This document shows, one piece after another, positions 15,119-21,954 of a DNA stretch of 22,279 bases. Under the pieces are notes generated by a model, which saw only the letters and a list, made by a program, of their open reading frames with translations, was not told where the DNA came from and searched no databases. The first letter of the stretch is position 1; each line of letters begins with the position of its first letter. The stretch spans positions 1 through 22,279 of IMG/VR virus record IMGVR_UViG_3300030451_002475, one strand, 5' to 3'. The position numbers and the translations under genes are program-made. This DNA comes from a virus.

Positions 15119-15313
15119 TTAAATTTTTTCTTCCTTAATAATGTACCTTTCAGGTTGAGCAAAATCTTCTCGACAACCTCTTTTTAATTTACCTAATAAC
15201 TTTTCTCTTAAAGCTATCTCACATTGTAATTTAGCTTCAGTATGTGTTTTACCTTCTCCCCACACTCTTGGAAAATTTGGAGTGTCTTTTTCTACGCCTA
15301 TGTATCTAATCAT
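15119..15313 (-). CDS. Small hypothetical protein, 64 aa
   Basis: The start is taken as the ATG at 15313-15311 (MIRYIGVEKDTPNFPRVWGE), preceded on the minus strand by AGGTGG; the frame is open a further 17 codons upstream, but that would lie entirely within the upstream gene. It overlaps the stop of the preceding gene by eight bases. The protein is short and basic, with FPRVWGEGKTHTEAKLQCEI and ALREKLLGKLKRGC suggesting a strand followed by one long helix; the layout recalls small phage proteins with a GeG.T..eA...ce.Al fold, also seen in HicB-like antitoxin domains, but the match is too loose to name. Function unknown. It ends at the structured spacer. Confidence 0.55.
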   Translation of the reverse strand: MIRYIGVEKDTPNFPRVWGEGKTHTEAKLQCEIALREKLLGKLKRGCREDFAQPERYIIKEEKI

Positions 15314-15668
15314 TAACCACCACCTTTCCTGTGTCTCTATCTTTAAGATAGTAGCCTTCTTCATTTATATCTTTTTGAGTTCTAGATAATCTATTAAATA
15401 AAACCTCATCAAAGTTTTCCCAAGAAAAATAATTTCTAGGTAATAGTTCCATCTCTGTATTTAGTTCAATGGGTTTTGCACCCATACCTGGAACTAAAAC
15501 CCCAAATTTTCTTTTAGGATTATTTAAATCTGTGACTTTATATTTTACACTAACAAAATATTCTTTAGAATAATATTTGTTTAGTTGTTTATCACCTATC
15601 TCAGTTACTTTAATTAAATAATTACCAGATCTAATATCCGATAATTTTTGATTTAAGTTATTATACAT
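15306..15668 (-). CDS. Hypothetical protein, 120 aa, minus-strand early gene
   Basis: Starts MYNNLNQKLSDIRSGNYLIK with AGGAGA 5 bases or so before the ATG on the minus strand. It is rich in Lys, Asn and Tyr, with strand-like segments (NYLIKVTEIGDK, YFVSVKYKVTDL, KFGVLVPGMGAKPIEL) and a charged C-terminus (YYLKDRDTGKVVVND). No named domain is recognised. It lies downstream of the SNF2 helicase on the same strand, separated by 96 bases, and is probably transcribed with it or from a weak promoter of its own. It may be an accessory of the helicase or an unrelated early protein; nothing in the sequence decides this. Confidence 0.55.
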   Translation of the reverse strand: MYNNLNQKLSDIRSGNYLIKVTEIGDKQLNKYYSKEYFVSVKYKVTDLNNPKRKFGVLVPGMGAKPIELNTEMELLPRNYFSWENFDEVLFNRLSRTQKDINEEGYYLKDRDTGKVVVND

Positions 15669-15764: not shown

Positions 15765-17195
15765 TTAAATCCATTCTTTTAAATCCTCCCCCATAACCTC
15801 AGATGCAATATTAATTTTTTCTCTTAATGCTTTTACAATTTTTTCATCAACAGTATCTTCAGCAATTAAATCAATATAGGTAACAGTTTTCTTTTGACCT
15901 ATTCTATGTGCTCTGTCTTCAGATTGTAATCTTTTTTCTAAATCATAACCATTAGAATAATAAATTACGGTATTGGCTTGTGTAAGTGTTATACCATAAC
16001 CACCTGTTTGTGGAGTGCCTATTAAAAATCTACATTTAGGATCATTTTGAAATTTACGAATATTGTCTTGTCTATCTTCTTGTGAGGTTAAACCATAATA
16101 GTGCACATAAGAATTTTTACCATATTCTTTAATTATTCTTTGTATAATCTCACCAACACTTAATTGATAATTAGCCCAAATAATAGCTTTACCATCTATT
16201 TCTTCAAGAATAGACATAAGTTCATTTATTCTGTTACTTTCAACTGATTGAGTAGAACCATCATCAGCTGTAAAATGTCCACAAGTAATTTGATGTAAAC
16301 GCATTAATTGTGTTAGCACGGTCATAGTAGTTGTGACCTTACCATTAAGAATAGCCATGGCTTCTTTTTTCATCTGTTCATAAATTCTTTTTTGGTCGGG
16401 AGTAAGAGCTACATGTCTCTTAATAAAATTTTTAGGAGGTAGATCCAAACAATCCTCTTTCAATACTCTGTATGAAAATCCTTTTACCTTATCCGATAGC
16501 TCTCCTAGATTTTGAAAGACATCTACTATCTGTATCGACCTACCACGCAGATGCATAGTCTTCATCTTTGCATATCTATTACGAAAAGCATAGAATGAGT
16601 CAAAGTTTAATAACCATGGATCAAGGAACTCACACTGACTAAATAAGTCTAGTGGATTTTTTGTAATAGGTGAGCCTGTCATTATTCTCCTATATTTTGC
16701 AAATTTTCCTAAATCGATTATATTTTTAGTTCTTTTTGCAGCTTGATTTTTAATCGTGGTAGACTCATCAATGGCCATCAATACTTTATGTGAGTTTAAA
16801 AATTTAGATGCAAATTTAACACCCTTATCTGTAGACAAAGACTCTACATTCATAATTAAAATATGTAAATCTTGACCTAATTCAAATAAAGATTCTAATT
16901 TTTCTCTTTGTGTTTTTGTTATATTCGATTGCCACAAAACTTTTGTGTTCTCAATGTGATTTGGTAAATGTGTTGGTAGTTCTTGTTCATACCAAGTTTT
17001 TACAACACCTTTTGGAGCAATAATTAAGGCACCATCCACCTTACCTTTGTCATACAACATGGCAAGATTATCTATTAATACTTTAGTTTTACCAGTACCC
17101 ATTTCCATAAAATAAGCATAGGTCTCTTTATTCCAAGATTTTTCTAACGCAGTTATTTGATGTGCGTAAGGTTTAGTTTTAAATTTATAATTCAT
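15765..17195 (-). CDS. SNF2-family (SF2) DNA helicase/translocase
   Basis: 476 residues from the ATG at 17195, chosen because AGGAGA precedes it closely and because the promoter places the transcript start near 17210, downstream of the alternative ATG at 17219. Visible motifs: PYAHQ (9-13), Walker A MGTGKT (32-37), motif Ia IIAPKGVVKTW (58-68), Walker B variant IDEST (142-146, DEST in place of DEAH), motif III TGSP (173-176), and in the C-terminal RecA domain GYGITLTQANTVIYYSNGYD, then EDRAHRIGQ (426-434) and TVDEKI. These are the ordered SNF2 motifs. The protein is the minimal helicase without extra domains. In phages such ATPases are thought to act in replication, recombination or remodelling of protein-DNA complexes. 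It is divergent from the plus-strand replication operon. Confidence 0.88.
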   Translation of the reverse strand: MNYKFKTKPYAHQITALEKSWNKETYAYFMEMGTGKTKVLIDNLAMLYDKGKVDGALIIAPKGVVKTWYEQELPTHLPNHIENTKVLWQSNITKTQREKLESLFELGQDLHILIMNVESLSTDKGVKFASKFLNSHKVLMAIDESTTIKNQAAKRTKNIIDLGKFAKYRRIMTGSPITKNPLDLFSQCEFLDPWLLNFDSFYAFRNRYAKMKTMHLRGRSIQIVDVFQNLGELSDKVKGFSYRVLKEDCLDLPPKNFIKRHVALTPDQKRIYEQMKKEAMAILNGKVTTTMTVLTQLMRLHQITCGHFTADDGSTQSVESNRINELMSILEEIDGKAIIWANYQLSVGEIIQRIIKEYGKNSYVHYYGLTSQEDRQDNIRKFQNDPKCRFLIGTPQTGGYGITLTQANTVIYYSNGYDLEKRLQSEDRAHRIGQKKTVTYIDLIAEDTVDEKIVKALREKINIASEVMGEDLKEWI

Positions 17196-17211
17196 TTTTT
17201 CTCCTGTATGG

Positions 17212-17246
17212 GTTGACATATATATTTTATTAAACTATATGTCAAC
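17212..17246. promoter_or_regulatory. Palindromic divergent promoter, mirror -35/-10 elements
   Basis: GTTGACATATA (17212-17222) and TATATGTCAAC (17236-17246) are perfect inverted 11-mers separated by 13 bases. Read rightward this gives -35 TTGACA (17213-17218), a 17-base spacer, and -10 TATATG (17236-17241). Read leftward it gives -35 TTGACA (17245-17240), a 17-base spacer, and -10 TATATG (17222-17217). Each -35 is a perfect consensus; each -10 matches four of six. The rightward start would be near 17248 and the leftward near 17210. The two polymerase sites occupy the same DNA, so firing should be mutually exclusive. The palindrome could also be an operator for a dimeric regulator. Confidence 0.72.
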
Positions 17247-17248
17247 GC

Positions 17249-17608
17249 ATGTCAGAAAGAATAGTGTATGTAATACAGGAGATAGCTGGTACTAAATTTG
17301 GCAACCCAAAAATAAATATCATGGGTGCATCTAAATTTGGTAAATTTAAATTTTTGTTGCCTGAAGATTCTCAAATAATATTTTCTCCAGGACCATTAGT
17401 ATATAAATTAAGAAGTCTTCTTAAAAATTTTAAACAAGAGGATTATTTATTATTAACTGGAGATCCAGCAATAATAGGCGTTGCATGTTCTATAGTGTCT
17501 GATATTACAAACGGTAAATACAATTTGCTTAAATGGGATAAACAAGAAAGAACATATTATCCTATAGAAATTAACTTATACGAGAAAGGAGAAATAGATG
17601 GCAATTGA
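17249..17608 (+). CDS. Conserved-type phage early protein of unknown function; probably leaderless
   Basis: 119 residues, first gene of the rightward operon. It reads ERIVYVIQEIAGTKFGNPKI, then NIMGASKFGKFKFLLPEDSQ, LVYKLRSLLKNF, DYLLLTGDPAIIGVACSIVSD, and ends KWDKQERTYYPIEINLYE. LLLTGDPAiiG..csivsD and LLkWDkQe..Y.pi.inly resemble a small protein often found beside replication genes in marine phages, without assigned function. No nucleotide-binding or DNA-binding motif is evident. The ATG begins about one base from the predicted transcription start and no Shine-Dalgarno precedes it, so the first cistron appears to be translated without a leader. It overlaps the next gene by 11 bases. Confidence 0.7.
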   Translation: MSERIVYVIQEIAGTKFGNPKINIMGASKFGKFKFLLPEDSQIIFSPGPLVYKLRSLLKNFKQEDYLLLTGDPAIIGVACSIVSDITNGKYNLLKWDKQERTYYPIEINLYEKGEIDGN

Positions 17609-18149
17609 TTTTGAAAAAGATCAACAAGATGCAATGAAAAAGACCGAAGGTATTCAGTCTCTTGCAGATCAAGTAGAAAAATTAGAGTCTTTACAAGAAA
17701 GATTAGAACTTCAAGAAGAGAATATAAAAAATACTAAATCAGAAATACAAAAAGTTTCTGGTGATATTATACCAACTATGATGTCAGAGATGGGACTTGC
17801 AGAATTAAAACTGCATGATGGATCGCATTTAAAAGTTTCAACGACGTATCGTGCTACCATTACGGAAGCAAACAAAGAGGCGGCGTTTAACTGGCTTCGT
17901 GAGAATGGACTAGGGGATATAATCAAAAACGAGATATCCGTATCCTTTGGTCGTAACGAAGATAACAAGGCAGCTGATTATGCTGAACTTGCGAAGGGTC
18001 AAGGGTTCCAACCAACACAAAAGATGAAGGTTGAACCCATGACTCTGAAAGCGTTAGTCCGTGAACGTATTGAGGCAGGTAAAGACATGCCAACGGAAAT
18101 CTTCGGAATATTTTCGGAGAATAAGACAACAATAAAAAGGAACAAGTAA
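17598..18149 (+). CDS. Conserved phage protein with N-terminal coiled coil
   Basis: 183 residues; AAAGGAG at 17585-17591 lies at a proper distance from the ATG. Residues ~20-54 are a coiled coil (LADQVEKLESLQERLELQEE onward). A compact domain follows: IIPTMMSEMGLAELKLHDGS (58-77), LKVSTTYRATI, then AAFNWLRENGLGDIIKNEIS (95-114) and VSFGRNED (115-122), and late MTLKALVRERIEAGKDMPTE. The mGl...L.dG..i.v...y.a.I...n...a..WLrengfgdiIKnevsv.fgr order matches a family of phage early proteins of unknown role, usually located beside ssDNA-binding proteins. The second half is clearly richer in G+C than the first. Function: unknown, probably DNA replication accessory by context. Confidence 0.65.
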   Translation: MAIDFEKDQQDAMKKTEGIQSLADQVEKLESLQERLELQEENIKNTKSEIQKVSGDIIPTMMSEMGLAELKLHDGSHLKVSTTYRATITEANKEAAFNWLRENGLGDIIKNEISVSFGRNEDNKAADYAELAKGQGFQPTQKMKVEPMTLKALVRERIEAGKDMPTEIFGIFSENKTTIKRNK

Positions 18150-18150
18150 C

Positions 18151-18909
18151 ATGAACCAAGTAACAACGAAAAAAGAAGGAGCATTAGCAACAAATATGTT
18201 TGAAGCTGATGCAAATATGGGTGCTCAAAATATATCGCAAGAAGATCTTGCGTTACCCTTCTTAAAAATTTTGGGACAACTATCTCCAGAGGTTAACAAA
18301 AGAGATGGTAAATATGTAGAGGGCGCAGAACCCGGCAAAATAATAAATACCGTTACTAACGCTTTGTACGATTCGATACAAGTTGTACCGTGTCATTACA
18401 AAAGACAGTACATAGAATGGCAAGATAGAGGTCAGAGTTCTGGCGCTCCTGTAGCTATTCATGAAGCTGATAGTGATATTATTAGTCAAACCACGAGAGG
18501 GAAAGACTATAAAGATAGATTACCAAACGGTAATTATCTTGATAATACCGCTAATCATTTTGTATTAGTTGTCGGTGATAGTCCTGAAACAGCGTTGATT
18601 TCTATGAAATCTACTCAACTTAAAGTAAGTAGAAAATGGAACTCAATGATGATGGGTATAAAAATGCAGGGTAAAAGTGGTTTGTTTACCCCGCCAACTT
18701 ACAGCCACATTTACAATTTAAAGACAGTGCAGATGTCTAACGACAAAGGCACTTGGTTTGGATGGGATGTAGAGAAAGTTGGTCCTGTTACAGATAAATC
18801 AATCTATGACATGGCTAAAAACTTTGCAACTAGTGTGGGTAAAGGTGAGATAGTCGCTAAACATGGTTCGGAAGACTCCGCACCAACTAATTCCACAGGC
18901 AACTATTAA
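18151..18909 (+). CDS. ssDNA-binding-like phage replication protein
   Basis: 252 residues following the previous stop by one base, with AAGGA upstream. It begins with a flexible polar segment, then QNISQEDLALPFLKILGQLS and a region ending GKIINTVTNALYDSIQVVPC. Later come HFVLVVGDSPETALISMKST, KVSRKWNSMMMGIKMQG, PPTYSHIYNLKTVQM and WFGWDVEKVG. The pattern of ipflkllq..sp......k.v.GA..G.i.nt.t...y..i.viP..y...y.ew resembles a phage family often annotated as hypothetical or ssDNA-binding and situated next to primase/helicase genes. I infer an OB-like or ssDNA-binding role from this; no experimental name is claimed. The acidic C-terminal tail expected of an SSB is only weak (GSEDSAPTNS). Confidence 0.5.
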   Translation: MNQVTTKKEGALATNMFEADANMGAQNISQEDLALPFLKILGQLSPEVNKRDGKYVEGAEPGKIINTVTNALYDSIQVVPCHYKRQYIEWQDRGQSSGAPVAIHEADSDIISQTTRGKDYKDRLPNGNYLDNTANHFVLVVGDSPETALISMKSTQLKVSRKWNSMMMGIKMQGKSGLFTPPTYSHIYNLKTVQMSNDKGTWFGWDVEKVGPVTDKSIYDMAKNFATSVGKGEIVAKHGSEDSAPTNSTGNY

Positions 18910-18924
18910 AAAGTATCCTAGGTG

Positions 18925-18964
18925 ATGGGCGGTGAAGGGAGACTGGAACCGCCCATTTATTATT
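18925..18964 (+). terminator. Hairpin between the ssDNA-binding-like gene and the primase
   Basis: ATGGGCGGT (18925-18933) and ACCGCCCAT (18948-18956) make a perfect 9-bp stem with a 14-base loop, extendable by one G-U pair. The stem is far more G+C-rich than its surroundings and is followed by TTTATTATT, a broken T-run. This fits a weak or partial rho-independent terminator that would reduce primase relative to the upstream genes. The loop contains AGGGAG, resembling a ribosome binding site, but 22 bases from the primase ATG. It could instead be a translational control hairpin. Confidence 0.5.
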
Positions 18965-20470
18965 ATGGAATTGATAGAAAGATTTAAAAATATATTTCAA
19001 GGTTTAGATAGAGCTCATGGTGTCACTAAAGTTGGAGAATCAAACGGAGATGGCAATAAAATAAAGGGTAAGTCTTTTGTAAAGAGAGAAATAATTACAG
19101 AAAATCATTGGGTAGAGCATTTACAAGGTGTAGAAAGTTTAGGCGTAATACCTATCAATGATGAAAATAAATGTAAATGGGGCTGTATAGATATAGACTC
19201 GTATGCAGGTTTTGATCACAAAAAACTAATTAATAAAATAGAAAATTTAAAACTACCTCTAATAGTATTTAGATCTAAATCTGGTGGTGCTCATGTTTTT
19301 TTATTCACATCAGAGTATGTCTCTGCTGCTTTGATGCAAGATAAACTAAATGAGATTAGATCTGTATTAGGTTATGGTGGATCTGAAGTTTTTCCAAAAC
19401 AAAGAGAATTAAAATCGAAAGATGATACAGGAAATTTTTTAAATTTACCATACTTTAAAGGTGATAATACGACAAGATATGCCTTTAATAATTTGGGAGA
19501 AGCTATTAATCTAGAAAGTTTTTATAATTTATACGATACTAAAAAAGTTACACAAGAACAATTACAAAATTTAAAAATAGAAAGACCAGAGACACCTTAC
19601 TCTGACGGTCCACCGTGTATAGAACTCATGGCACAAAATAGAATAGGGGAGGGTGGGCGTAACAATGCATTGTTTCATTATGGTGTATACGCAAAATCTA
19701 AATGGCCAGATAATTGGAAAACAAAAATAATGATATTTAATGATATGGCAATGGAGCAACCATTGTCAGATACAGAGGTAAATATAATAACAAAACAACA
19801 CGATAAAAAAGATTGGGGTTATAAATGTAACGATCAACCTATGTGTAGTTTATGTGATAAAAAATTATGTAAATCTAGAAAGTTTGGAATAGGGCAAGAG
19901 ATAATGTTTCCTAACTTAACAGACTTACAAGTTGTTAATTTAGAAGAACCTTACTATTATTTAAATGTCGATGGAGATAGGTTATATTTAGATTCAGCAA
20001 AACATTTAACTAATCAAGCTTTGTTTCAAGAAGAGTGTGTTAAGCAGCTTAGATTCAATCCACCTACTTTAAAAACTAATGAATGGAAACAAAAAACTAA
20101 TGTCTTATTAGAAGGTGCAGAGATAACAGAACCTGCTGAAGGAACAGGGACTAGGGATATTTTAAGAAACTATTTAGAAGATTATTGTCTAAATAGAGTT
20201 AAAAAAGATGACTTTGAAGATCTAAAAAATGGTGGAACTTATACTAAAGATGGTCATCACTATTTTGTATTTGATAATTTTTTCCATCAATACTTAACTC
20301 GTAGACATTGGAAAGTTCAATATCAAAGAACATCGCAAATGTTAAAAGATCACTTAAATTGTTTTACAAAAAGAGTAGGTAAAACAAAACTATCTGTATT
20401 TGTCGTAGCTAGATTCGATAAAAAACCACAAACATATAAAGAAAAAACATTTAACAAGGAGAACTATTAA
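18965..20470 (+). CDS. Archaeo-eukaryotic-type primase (TOTE conflict primase family)
   Basis: 501 residues from the ATG at 18965; the in-frame GTG at 18932 lies inside the hairpin stem and is less likely. AEP landmarks: IDID (75-78, the catalytic DxD), VFRSKSGGAHVFLF (101-114, sxH with H110), EVFPKQ (141-146) and FLNLPYF (158-164). These match primases of the TOTE type, which make primers de novo on single-stranded DNA. A GGRNNALFHYGVYAK segment (230-244) resembles the PriCT helical region behind phage primases, and residues 288-302 hold C-x5-C-x2-C-x4-C (C288, C294, C297, C302), a likely zinc or Fe-S site. The rest of the C-terminus is helical and may contact the helicase. It has no ribosome binding site at normal distance and overlaps the helicase ATG by one base. 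Confidence 0.82.
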   Translation: MELIERFKNIFQGLDRAHGVTKVGESNGDGNKIKGKSFVKREIITENHWVEHLQGVESLGVIPINDENKCKWGCIDIDSYAGFDHKKLINKIENLKLPLIVFRSKSGGAHVFLFTSEYVSAALMQDKLNEIRSVLGYGGSEVFPKQRELKSKDDTGNFLNLPYFKGDNTTRYAFNNLGEAINLESFYNLYDTKKVTQEQLQNLKIERPETPYSDGPPCIELMAQNRIGEGGRNNALFHYGVYAKSKWPDNWKTKIMIFNDMAMEQPLSDTEVNIITKQHDKKDWGYKCNDQPMCSLCDKKLCKSRKFGIGQEIMFPNLTDLQVVNLEEPYYYLNVDGDRLYLDSAKHLTNQALFQEECVKQLRFNPPTLKTNEWKQKTNVLLEGAEITEPAEGTGTRDILRNYLEDYCLNRVKKDDFEDLKNGGTYTKDGHHYFVFDNFFHQYLTRRHWKVQYQRTSQMLKDHLNCFTKRVGKTKLSVFVVARFDKKPQTYKEKTFNKENY

Positions 20471-21954
20471 TGAGAAAGATAATATATGGACCACCGGGTA
20501 CGGGTAAAACATATTACCTAATGAATGAGTTAGAAAAATTTTTAGAGAAAGTAGATCCTAGTAAAATAGGTTATTTTACATTTTCTAAAAATGCAGCACA
20601 AGAGGGTAAGAGTAGAGCTATGGAAAAATTTAATTTAACAGATAAGGATCTACCTTACTTCAGAACTCTACACTCTTTTTGTTTTAATTTATTGGGACTT
20701 AAAAAAGAAAATGTAATGCAAGAAAAAGATTACAGAGACTTGGGTAAAGACATACAGATAGAGTTTGAAGGTATTCGTTATGACAATGACCACGAAGGTG
20801 TGTTACATTCAAAGGATCCTTACATATCCCTCATAAGTCTTGCTAGAAACAAAAGAATATCGCCGTTGGAATTATATAATCGTAACGGTAATAATTATAA
20901 TATAACTTATGATAAGTTAGAGATAATTAATAAAGAACTATACAGATATAAAAAACACAAAGGTCTAATAGATTTTATTGATATGTTAGAGAAATTTTTA
21001 GACAAAGGTGAAAGCCCTAAGTTTGAGGTTATATTTGTAGATGAAGCACAAGATTTAAGTTTAATTCAATGGGACATAGTAAAAAAATTAGAAAAGAGTT
21101 CTAAGCAATCCATAATAGCAGGTGACGATGATCAAGCTATTTACAAATGGAATGGTGCTTATCCAGAGAACTTTATAAACTTAGAAGGAGAAAAGATTAT
21201 ATTACAACAATCTTACAGAGTTCCTAAAAAAATTTTTAATGTAGCAAACTCAATAATTACAAAAGTTAAAAATAGAGTACAGAAAAATTGGATACCTAAA
21301 GAAGATTTAGGTGATGTCGATTATCATTGGGAGTTAGAAAGGGTGAATTTATCTAAAGGTGAGTGGTTAATTTTAGCTAGAACTAATTTATTTTTAGAAA
21401 AGGTTGCTTATTATCTAGATCAAAATGGTTACTATTTTCAAAGAAGAAACTCTACACCAAGAGTGCAAAACATATATGCACTAATAGAAAATTGGAATAA
21501 GTTAAGAGAGGGCACACCTTTACATTATAATGATTATAAAAAGATAACTAATAAGATGAGTAAAAATGTAGATGTTAAAAAAATGAAATCTATGTCTAAA
21601 GAAAATTATTATGATATCGATACTTTAAAAGCTAACTATGGTTTAAAAACAAATGATGAGTGGTATAAAGCTTTTGATGATTTAGGTGATGATGAAATAA
21701 GAAAAATAAGAAAATTAATAGAGAGTGGAGAGGACTTATCAAGAGAACCTAGAATTAAAATATCAACTATTCATGGTGTGAAAGGTAATGAAAGAGATAA
21801 TGTGGTGTTGTTAACAGATTTGAGTAATGCTGCATATAATAAATACCTAGATGACCCAGACGATGAACATAGATTATTTTATGTTGGTGTCACAAGAGCT
21901 AAGAAAAAATTAAACATAATTTATTCAAAAACAGAAAGAGGTTATAAAATATGA
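20470..21954 (+). CDS. UvrD/PcrA-like superfamily 1 DNA helicase
   Basis: 494 residues. Ordered SF1 motifs: Walker A GPPGTGKT (7-14), motif Ia-like TFSKNAA (37-43) and TLHSF (67-71), DFIDML (168-173), motif II DEAQD (191-195), motif III GDDDQAIY (218-225), motif IV QSYRVP (247-252), motif V STIHGVKGNE (432-441) and motif VI YVGVTRAKK (471-479). It is shorter than bacterial UvrD (about 700 residues) because the 1B/2B insertions are reduced, as in phage members. With a primase immediately upstream sharing one base, it is likely the replicative or replication-restart helicase of this phage. The UvrD-like fold implies 3'-5' movement on ssDNA, by family knowledge only. Confidence 0.9.
   Translation: MRKIIYGPPGTGKTYYLMNELEKFLEKVDPSKIGYFTFSKNAAQEGKSRAMEKFNLTDKDLPYFRTLHSFCFNLLGLKKENVMQEKDYRDLGKDIQIEFEGIRYDNDHEGVLHSKDPYISLISLARNKRISPLELYNRNGNNYNITYDKLEIINKELYRYKKHKGLIDFIDMLEKFLDKGESPKFEVIFVDEAQDLSLIQWDIVKKLEKSSKQSIIAGDDDQAIYKWNGAYPENFINLEGEKIILQQSYRVPKKIFNVANSIITKVKNRVQKNWIPKEDLGDVDYHWELERVNLSKGEWLILARTNLFLEKVAYYLDQNGYYFQRRNSTPRVQNIYALIENWNKLREGTPLHYNDYKKITNKMSKNVDVKKMKSMSKENYYDIDTLKANYGLKTNDEWYKAFDDLGDDEIRKIRKLIESGEDLSREPRIKISTIHGVKGNERDNVVLLTDLSNAAYNKYLDDPDDEHRLFYVGVTRAKKKLNIIYSKTERGYKI

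Follow-up and report, generated by a model that had tools for sequence, protein, structure and literature searches.

Inverted repeats between divergent genes are classically operators, as exemplified by the bio operon, where the divergent promoters of bioA and bioB overlap and the dyad lying over them is the repressor operator. In Escherichia coli and Salmonella, Warman and colleagues have described bidirectional promoters, which share a symmetric -10 element and have transcription starts 7-25 bp apart, mostly 18 bp (PMC12825309, PMC10268837). At the E. coli bidirectional promoters opposing polymerases are stated to be unable to bind together, and competition between them was found to be of consequence only if transcription one way is strong; at basal promoters of this kind, occupancy is reportedly too low for competition (PMC12825309). 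For alphaproteobacterial housekeeping promoters, the σ70 consensus of S. meliloti is CTTGAC-N17-CTATAT (PMC2873474).

The DNA analysed here is a 22,279-nt virus record (IMGVR_UViG_3300030451_002475, positions 1-22,279), the whole of which is referred to as the window. The annotated viruses nearest to it are Pelagibacter phages of the HTVC023P/HTVC027P group. HTVC023P-type phages have been described as widespread and as belonging to the most abundant pelagiphages (PMC9599517). HTVC027P is without an RNA polymerase and depends on the host enzyme throughout infection (PMC12753301). Our literature search found no promoter or start-site study of HTVC023P-type phages and no account of a divergent promoter combining TTGACA and TGTCAA. 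Close relatives of the SNF2-type helicase gene of the window are present in contigs of SAR11 single-cell genomes (L170, L171 and L177-L179), the cells having probably been infected. Remoter cousins (L172 and L174) were found in Prochlorococcus and Flavobacterium single-cell genomes, where they were perhaps co-sorted.

Anatomy of the intergenic site

An exact 11-bp inverted repeat lies between two divergent start codons, the ATG of the SNF2 gene at 17195 (minus strand) and the ATG of a gene for a Pam3 gp32-like protein at 17249 (plus strand). As read directly, it consists of the left arm GTTGACATATA (17212-17222), a 13-nt spacer TATTTTATTAAAC (17223-17235) and the right arm TATATGTCAAC (17236-17246). 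On the plus strand TTGACA (17213-17218) is followed after 17 nt by TATATG (17236-17241), and the minus strand is the exact mirror of this. The repeat, its 13-base spacer and the 17-base spacing on both strands had been described in an earlier note on this DNA and were confirmed. That note had also proposed a mirror-image divergent promoter, of which the central idea, that the same bases serve a promoter on each strand, is supported by the conservation of both arms and by an anatomy that behaves as two promoters. Its reading of the -10 elements, however, had to be corrected. The mirror-image hexamers are present at N17, but by the E. coli rule TATATG makes a weak -10 (4/6, last position not T), and it was replaced by the better CTATAT or ATATAT one base upstream. 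Read in this way, GTTGAC-N17-CTATAT on the plus strand (-35 at 17212-17217, -10 at 17235-17240) matches the S. meliloti consensus at 11 of 12 positions, and GTTGAC-N17-ATATAT on the minus strand (-35 from 17246 to 17241, -10 at 17218-17223) at 10 of 12. These two are the best matches to CTTGAC-N17-CTATAT on either strand of the 22-kb window. Both have the near-consensus hexamers and the 17-nt spacing of alphaproteobacterial housekeeping promoters, the spacing being kept in relatives, and each is located 5' of a gene start on its own strand.

The SNF2 gene (15765..17195; PF00176, PF00271; phrog_62) is the first of a leftward cluster on the minus strand that also comprises a 120-aa ORF 3' of it (15306..15668) and, as the last member, an 81-aa ORF (15119..15364), both without a family match. 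The rightward operon on the plus strand starts with the gp32-like gene (119 aa, 17249..17608; PF23992), and continues with genes for Pam3 gp33-like (17598..18149; PF23984) and gp34-like (18151..18909; PF23977) proteins, a primase of the AEP-TOTE type (18932..20470; PF22548, phrog_21866) and a UvrD-type helicase (20470..21954; PF00580). The suggestion that the site would divide 'early' transcription between these two gene sets is unsupported as regards timing: in HTVC027P all early genes are of unknown function (PMC12753301), and annotated helicase and primase genes therefore fall outside the early class there.

We consider it very probable, on the basis of the sequence comparisons described below, that the σ70-type RNA polymerase of the SAR11 host uses the site as a nested bidirectional promoter. 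The same 35 bp would hold two near-consensus promoters, one per strand, with each -10 overlapping or abutting the -35 of its partner, and the palindrome would be the outcome of this tight packing, in which the -10 on one strand passes directly into the other strand's reversed -35. To the right, transcription would start at or next to the A of the ATG at 17249, which is 36 nt downstream of the first T in TTGACA, and would give a leaderless mRNA of the replication operon. The rightward gene appears to be leaderless: in both span classes, most cores have its ATG 35-36 nt away from TTGAC, with no room for a Shine-Dalgarno sequence. From the mirror geometry, leftward transcription would start near 17209 and provide the SNF2 mRNA with a 14-nt leader (ATACAGGAGAAAAA), in which AGGAGA (17200-17205, minus strand) would act as the Shine-Dalgarno sequence (SAR11 16S 3' end, ACCTCCTTTCT). 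Because both polymerases would need the same DNA, the host enzyme would bind in one of two orientations at a time, blocking the other meanwhile. It should be noted that AGAAAG, which is also complementary to the SAR11 16S 3' end, is located at 17254-17259, inside codons 2-4 of the rightward gene and downstream of its ATG, and that this position is conserved in most relatives.

No exact inverted repeat in the window other than the dyad at 17212-17246 combines arms of at least 11 bp with a spacer of at most 30 nt. Such a repeat is by itself not rare, as 27% of simulated windows hold one, but it arises by chance in just 4 of 10,000 (0.04%) 53-nt stretches with the local composition. Far more than the rarity of the repeat, we regard its conservation among relatives as the real evidence against chance.

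The pattern TTGAC-N16-19-TATAT was found 33 times in six phage records versus 5 times in a reversed control, a count that includes the site at 17212-17246. Of the promoter-like sites fetched elsewhere in relatives, 14 of 15 were located outside long same-strand ORFs, and most were upstream of an ORF start. The host side of the promoter match was tested weakly. CTTGAT-N16-CTATAA is present at the rRNA operons of three of the four SAR11 cells examined, strict-pattern matches on SAR11 chromosomes were few and not above the control, and a small set of 149 host upstream regions likewise held too few sites to be informative.

Conservation and span classes among relatives

Relatives were collected in two scans of viral contigs; across the non-redundant rows that bear the dyad, SNF2 protein identities go down to ~61%. 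TTGAC...GTCAA is kept by all 143 close relatives that have a complete flank, representing 81 distinct versions, whereas the 13-nt centre drifts, which is the outcome that the earlier note had proposed as a check. Other loci without the dyad in this comparison have shortened flanks. The fourfold degenerate sites of SNF2 show an identity of 0.48 versus 0.36 expected from composition and are thus near saturation, which means that unconstrained DNA would have lost the TTGAC...GTCAA match. In four further relatives with insertions between the site and SNF2, the dyad is intact beside the rightward gene.

Insertions in the SNF2 leader were observed in L046, L065 and L111 (~110-150 nt, in the first ~160 nt upstream of SNF2), where they carry inverted repeats of the GGGCGTAT...ATACGCC type without an Rfam match, and at the same place in L068 (~500 nt). 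One 65-kb contig (G011) has two different SNF2/gp32 intergenic dyads, at C1:3147-3182 (span 36) and 59201-59237 (span 37). The first of these adjoins a shortened SNF2 frame, and the presence of two dyads reflects either a duplication or an assembly join.

TTGAC and GTCAA together span 33 bp in 35 of the versions, 37 bp in another 43, and 34 or 35 bp in the remaining 3. On the SNF2 protein tree the span class changes at least ten times, counting starred branches alone, and recombination at the site may contribute to this switching. Within each promoter the geometry is constant. The CTATAT match peaks at N16-N17 after TTGAC on both strands and in both main span classes, and the plus-strand TATA is found at index 22 or 23 in 80 of the 81 distinct cores. 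The minus-strand TATA is mostly at index 23, and 7 of the 81 cores are without a TATA in the interval searched. The distance between the rightward ATG and its own TTGAC is 35-36 nt in 23 of the 35 versions in the 33-bp class and in 36 of the 43 in the 37-bp class. Nearly all remaining rightward ATGs, about a fifth of the distinct versions, are at 38-39, which would leave a leader of ~3 nt. Measured against the other arm, the ATG is usually at +2/+3 in the 33-bp class and at -1 in the 37-bp class, as that arm moves by 4 bp. These data fit, and are most naturally read as, two promoters that are each rigid and slide against one another. Outside the hexamers the 37-bp class no longer has the palindrome, its symmetry being reduced to TTGAC/GTCAA plus the TATA boxes. 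The earlier statement that each -10 overlaps the opposite -35 thus holds at the window site, but in the 37-bp class the -10s only abut the opposite -35s.

These data bear directly on the view that the palindrome is the operator of a dimeric repressor or activator, coded by phage or host, with the promoters located elsewhere or only one of them in use. Besides the classical role of such dyads between divergent genes, this view draws on nine unrelated viral contigs that carry an idealised dyad, mostly beside one gene only. In addition, some relatives carry a short dyad, TTGACAATAGGATTGTCAA, within the spacer of another promoter-like site (G010:C1:51310-51328, G009:C1:22921-22939), where it could be an operator. 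However, a half-site spacing that takes values of 33, 34, 35 and 37 bp, and that switches between 33 and 37 bp at least ten times, would impose a large change of helical phase on a rigid dimer. Moreover, the symmetry of the 37-bp class is confined to the promoter elements, the ATG is phased to one arm only, and TTGAC-N17/18-TATA sites elsewhere are mostly unidirectional. Since the -35/-10 and ATG geometry remains constant while the span switches, the site has the properties of two promoters and not of one dimer operator. We therefore consider an operator very improbable; as the sole explanation it was rejected on the span changes and the ATG phasing. A regulator could still bind at the site in addition to the polymerase.

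The nested dyad is absent from the HTVC027P clade, which has the same gene pair and keeps the right arm alone. The clade has another mirror arrangement (L195-L274, and the junction of the L163 end and L164 start in the HTVC027P genome), consisting of a left -35 of the TTTACT type, TATATA at the centre and, to its right, TTGACT in the leftward reading; AGAAAG leaders flank it on either side. The central TATATA could be a -10 shared by both directions. The earlier note had regarded relatives with only one conserved arm as evidence against its proposal; such relatives thus exist in this clade, but they have another apparent two-way promoter at the same place. Neither the nested dyad nor the HTVC027P-clade mirror was found in HTVC023P and phage DSL-LC04, and 023Pt_psg01 has the nested dyad with a span of 37.

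Recurrence of the nested design at the terminase gene

The same nested design is found in relatives between the gene for the terminase small subunit (TerS, phrog_51) and a small ORF, with the sequence TTGACAATTTAAGGGAACTATCCTATAATGTCAA (G009:C1:20505-20538, G008:C1:42433-42466, G011:C1:46641-46674, G010:C1:48465-48498 and L316-L435). A pattern scan for this dyad returned at least 120 stretches and at least 115 usable contigs (88 distinct). Among the matches listed, 79 could be scored for the TerS ATG, and in every one it was 35 or 36 nt away from its own TTGAC; for the opposite small ORF, 78 of 87 matches had the ATG at 35-38 nt. G012 also carries a nested dyad between these two genes, one with another spacer and with ATG offsets of 35 and 37. 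Judged by these offsets, both genes at the terminase site look leaderless.

It could be argued that only one direction is a real promoter and that AT-rich sequence and a conserved coding start produced the mirror hexamers as by-products. The rightward promoter is indeed the one more tightly phased to its ATG, and the HTVC027P clade keeps the right arm alone. Nevertheless, relatives conserve the two hexamer pairs with unchanged spacing on either strand, each of the ATGs at the terminase site is phased (35-38 nt), and insertions that displace SNF2 leave both arms intact, so that we regard this explanation as very improbable. Even less credence is given to a replication origin, a recombination site or an RNA hairpin that resembles promoters by chance. 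The site adjoins replication genes, a recombination site could underlie the repeated span switching, and the site, as RNA, would fold with -10.2 kcal/mol (z -4.9). Yet these explanations leave the fixed -10 and ATG phasing unexplained, and the same design recurs at a packaging gene. A hairpin would, in addition, be located upstream of both predicted starts and lack a T-run. A terminator or RNA element was rejected on these grounds and on an Rfam search of the window, which gave no match. The sequences thus show the conservation, the fixed -35/-10/ATG geometry, the sliding of the two units and the recurrence at a second gene pair, whereas promoter activity, start sites and mutual exclusion are inferred.

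Comparison with known promoters

The nested site has the hexamers and the spacing of the alphaproteobacterial housekeeping promoter, but it has them on both strands over the same bases. The apparent intergenic promoter of the HTVC027P clade resembles it in gene pair, mirror symmetry and predicted bidirectionality. It differs in that its -10s share the central TATATA with the -35s outside, as in the published type, and in that its rightward gene has an AGAAAG leader.

If active, the nested site would be near the shortest possible divergent promoter, with start codons ~36-60 bp apart, and its many natural variants in two span classes would be a ready set for measuring how polymerase competition divides transcription. 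We judge the chances to be evenly balanced that it represents a distinct pelagiphage architecture, in which each strand of a single 33-37 bp DNA fires a gene that is leaderless or nearly so, the orientation of the polymerase sets the split between operons, and the arrangement is kept at two unrelated gene pairs in several genomes as a form of genome compression.

As in bioA/bioB, divergent promoters would overlap under a dyad, but here the symmetry is confined to the promoter elements and the two halves slide. As in the promoters of Warman and colleagues, one short symmetric DNA is predicted to engage RNA polymerase either way. Unlike these, the nested site has separate -10s, each overlapping or abutting the opposite -35, and both -35s are near consensus. 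Full overlap of the core promoters implies that polymerase would bind in two mutually exclusive orientations, and with near-consensus elements on both strands, competition is plausible. The predicted starts at 17249 and 17209 are ~40 bp apart and involve no shared symmetric -10. Bidirectional promoters as a kind are thus already known, whereas this geometry is outside their published definition and, if active, would extend them beyond the range of 7-25 bp.
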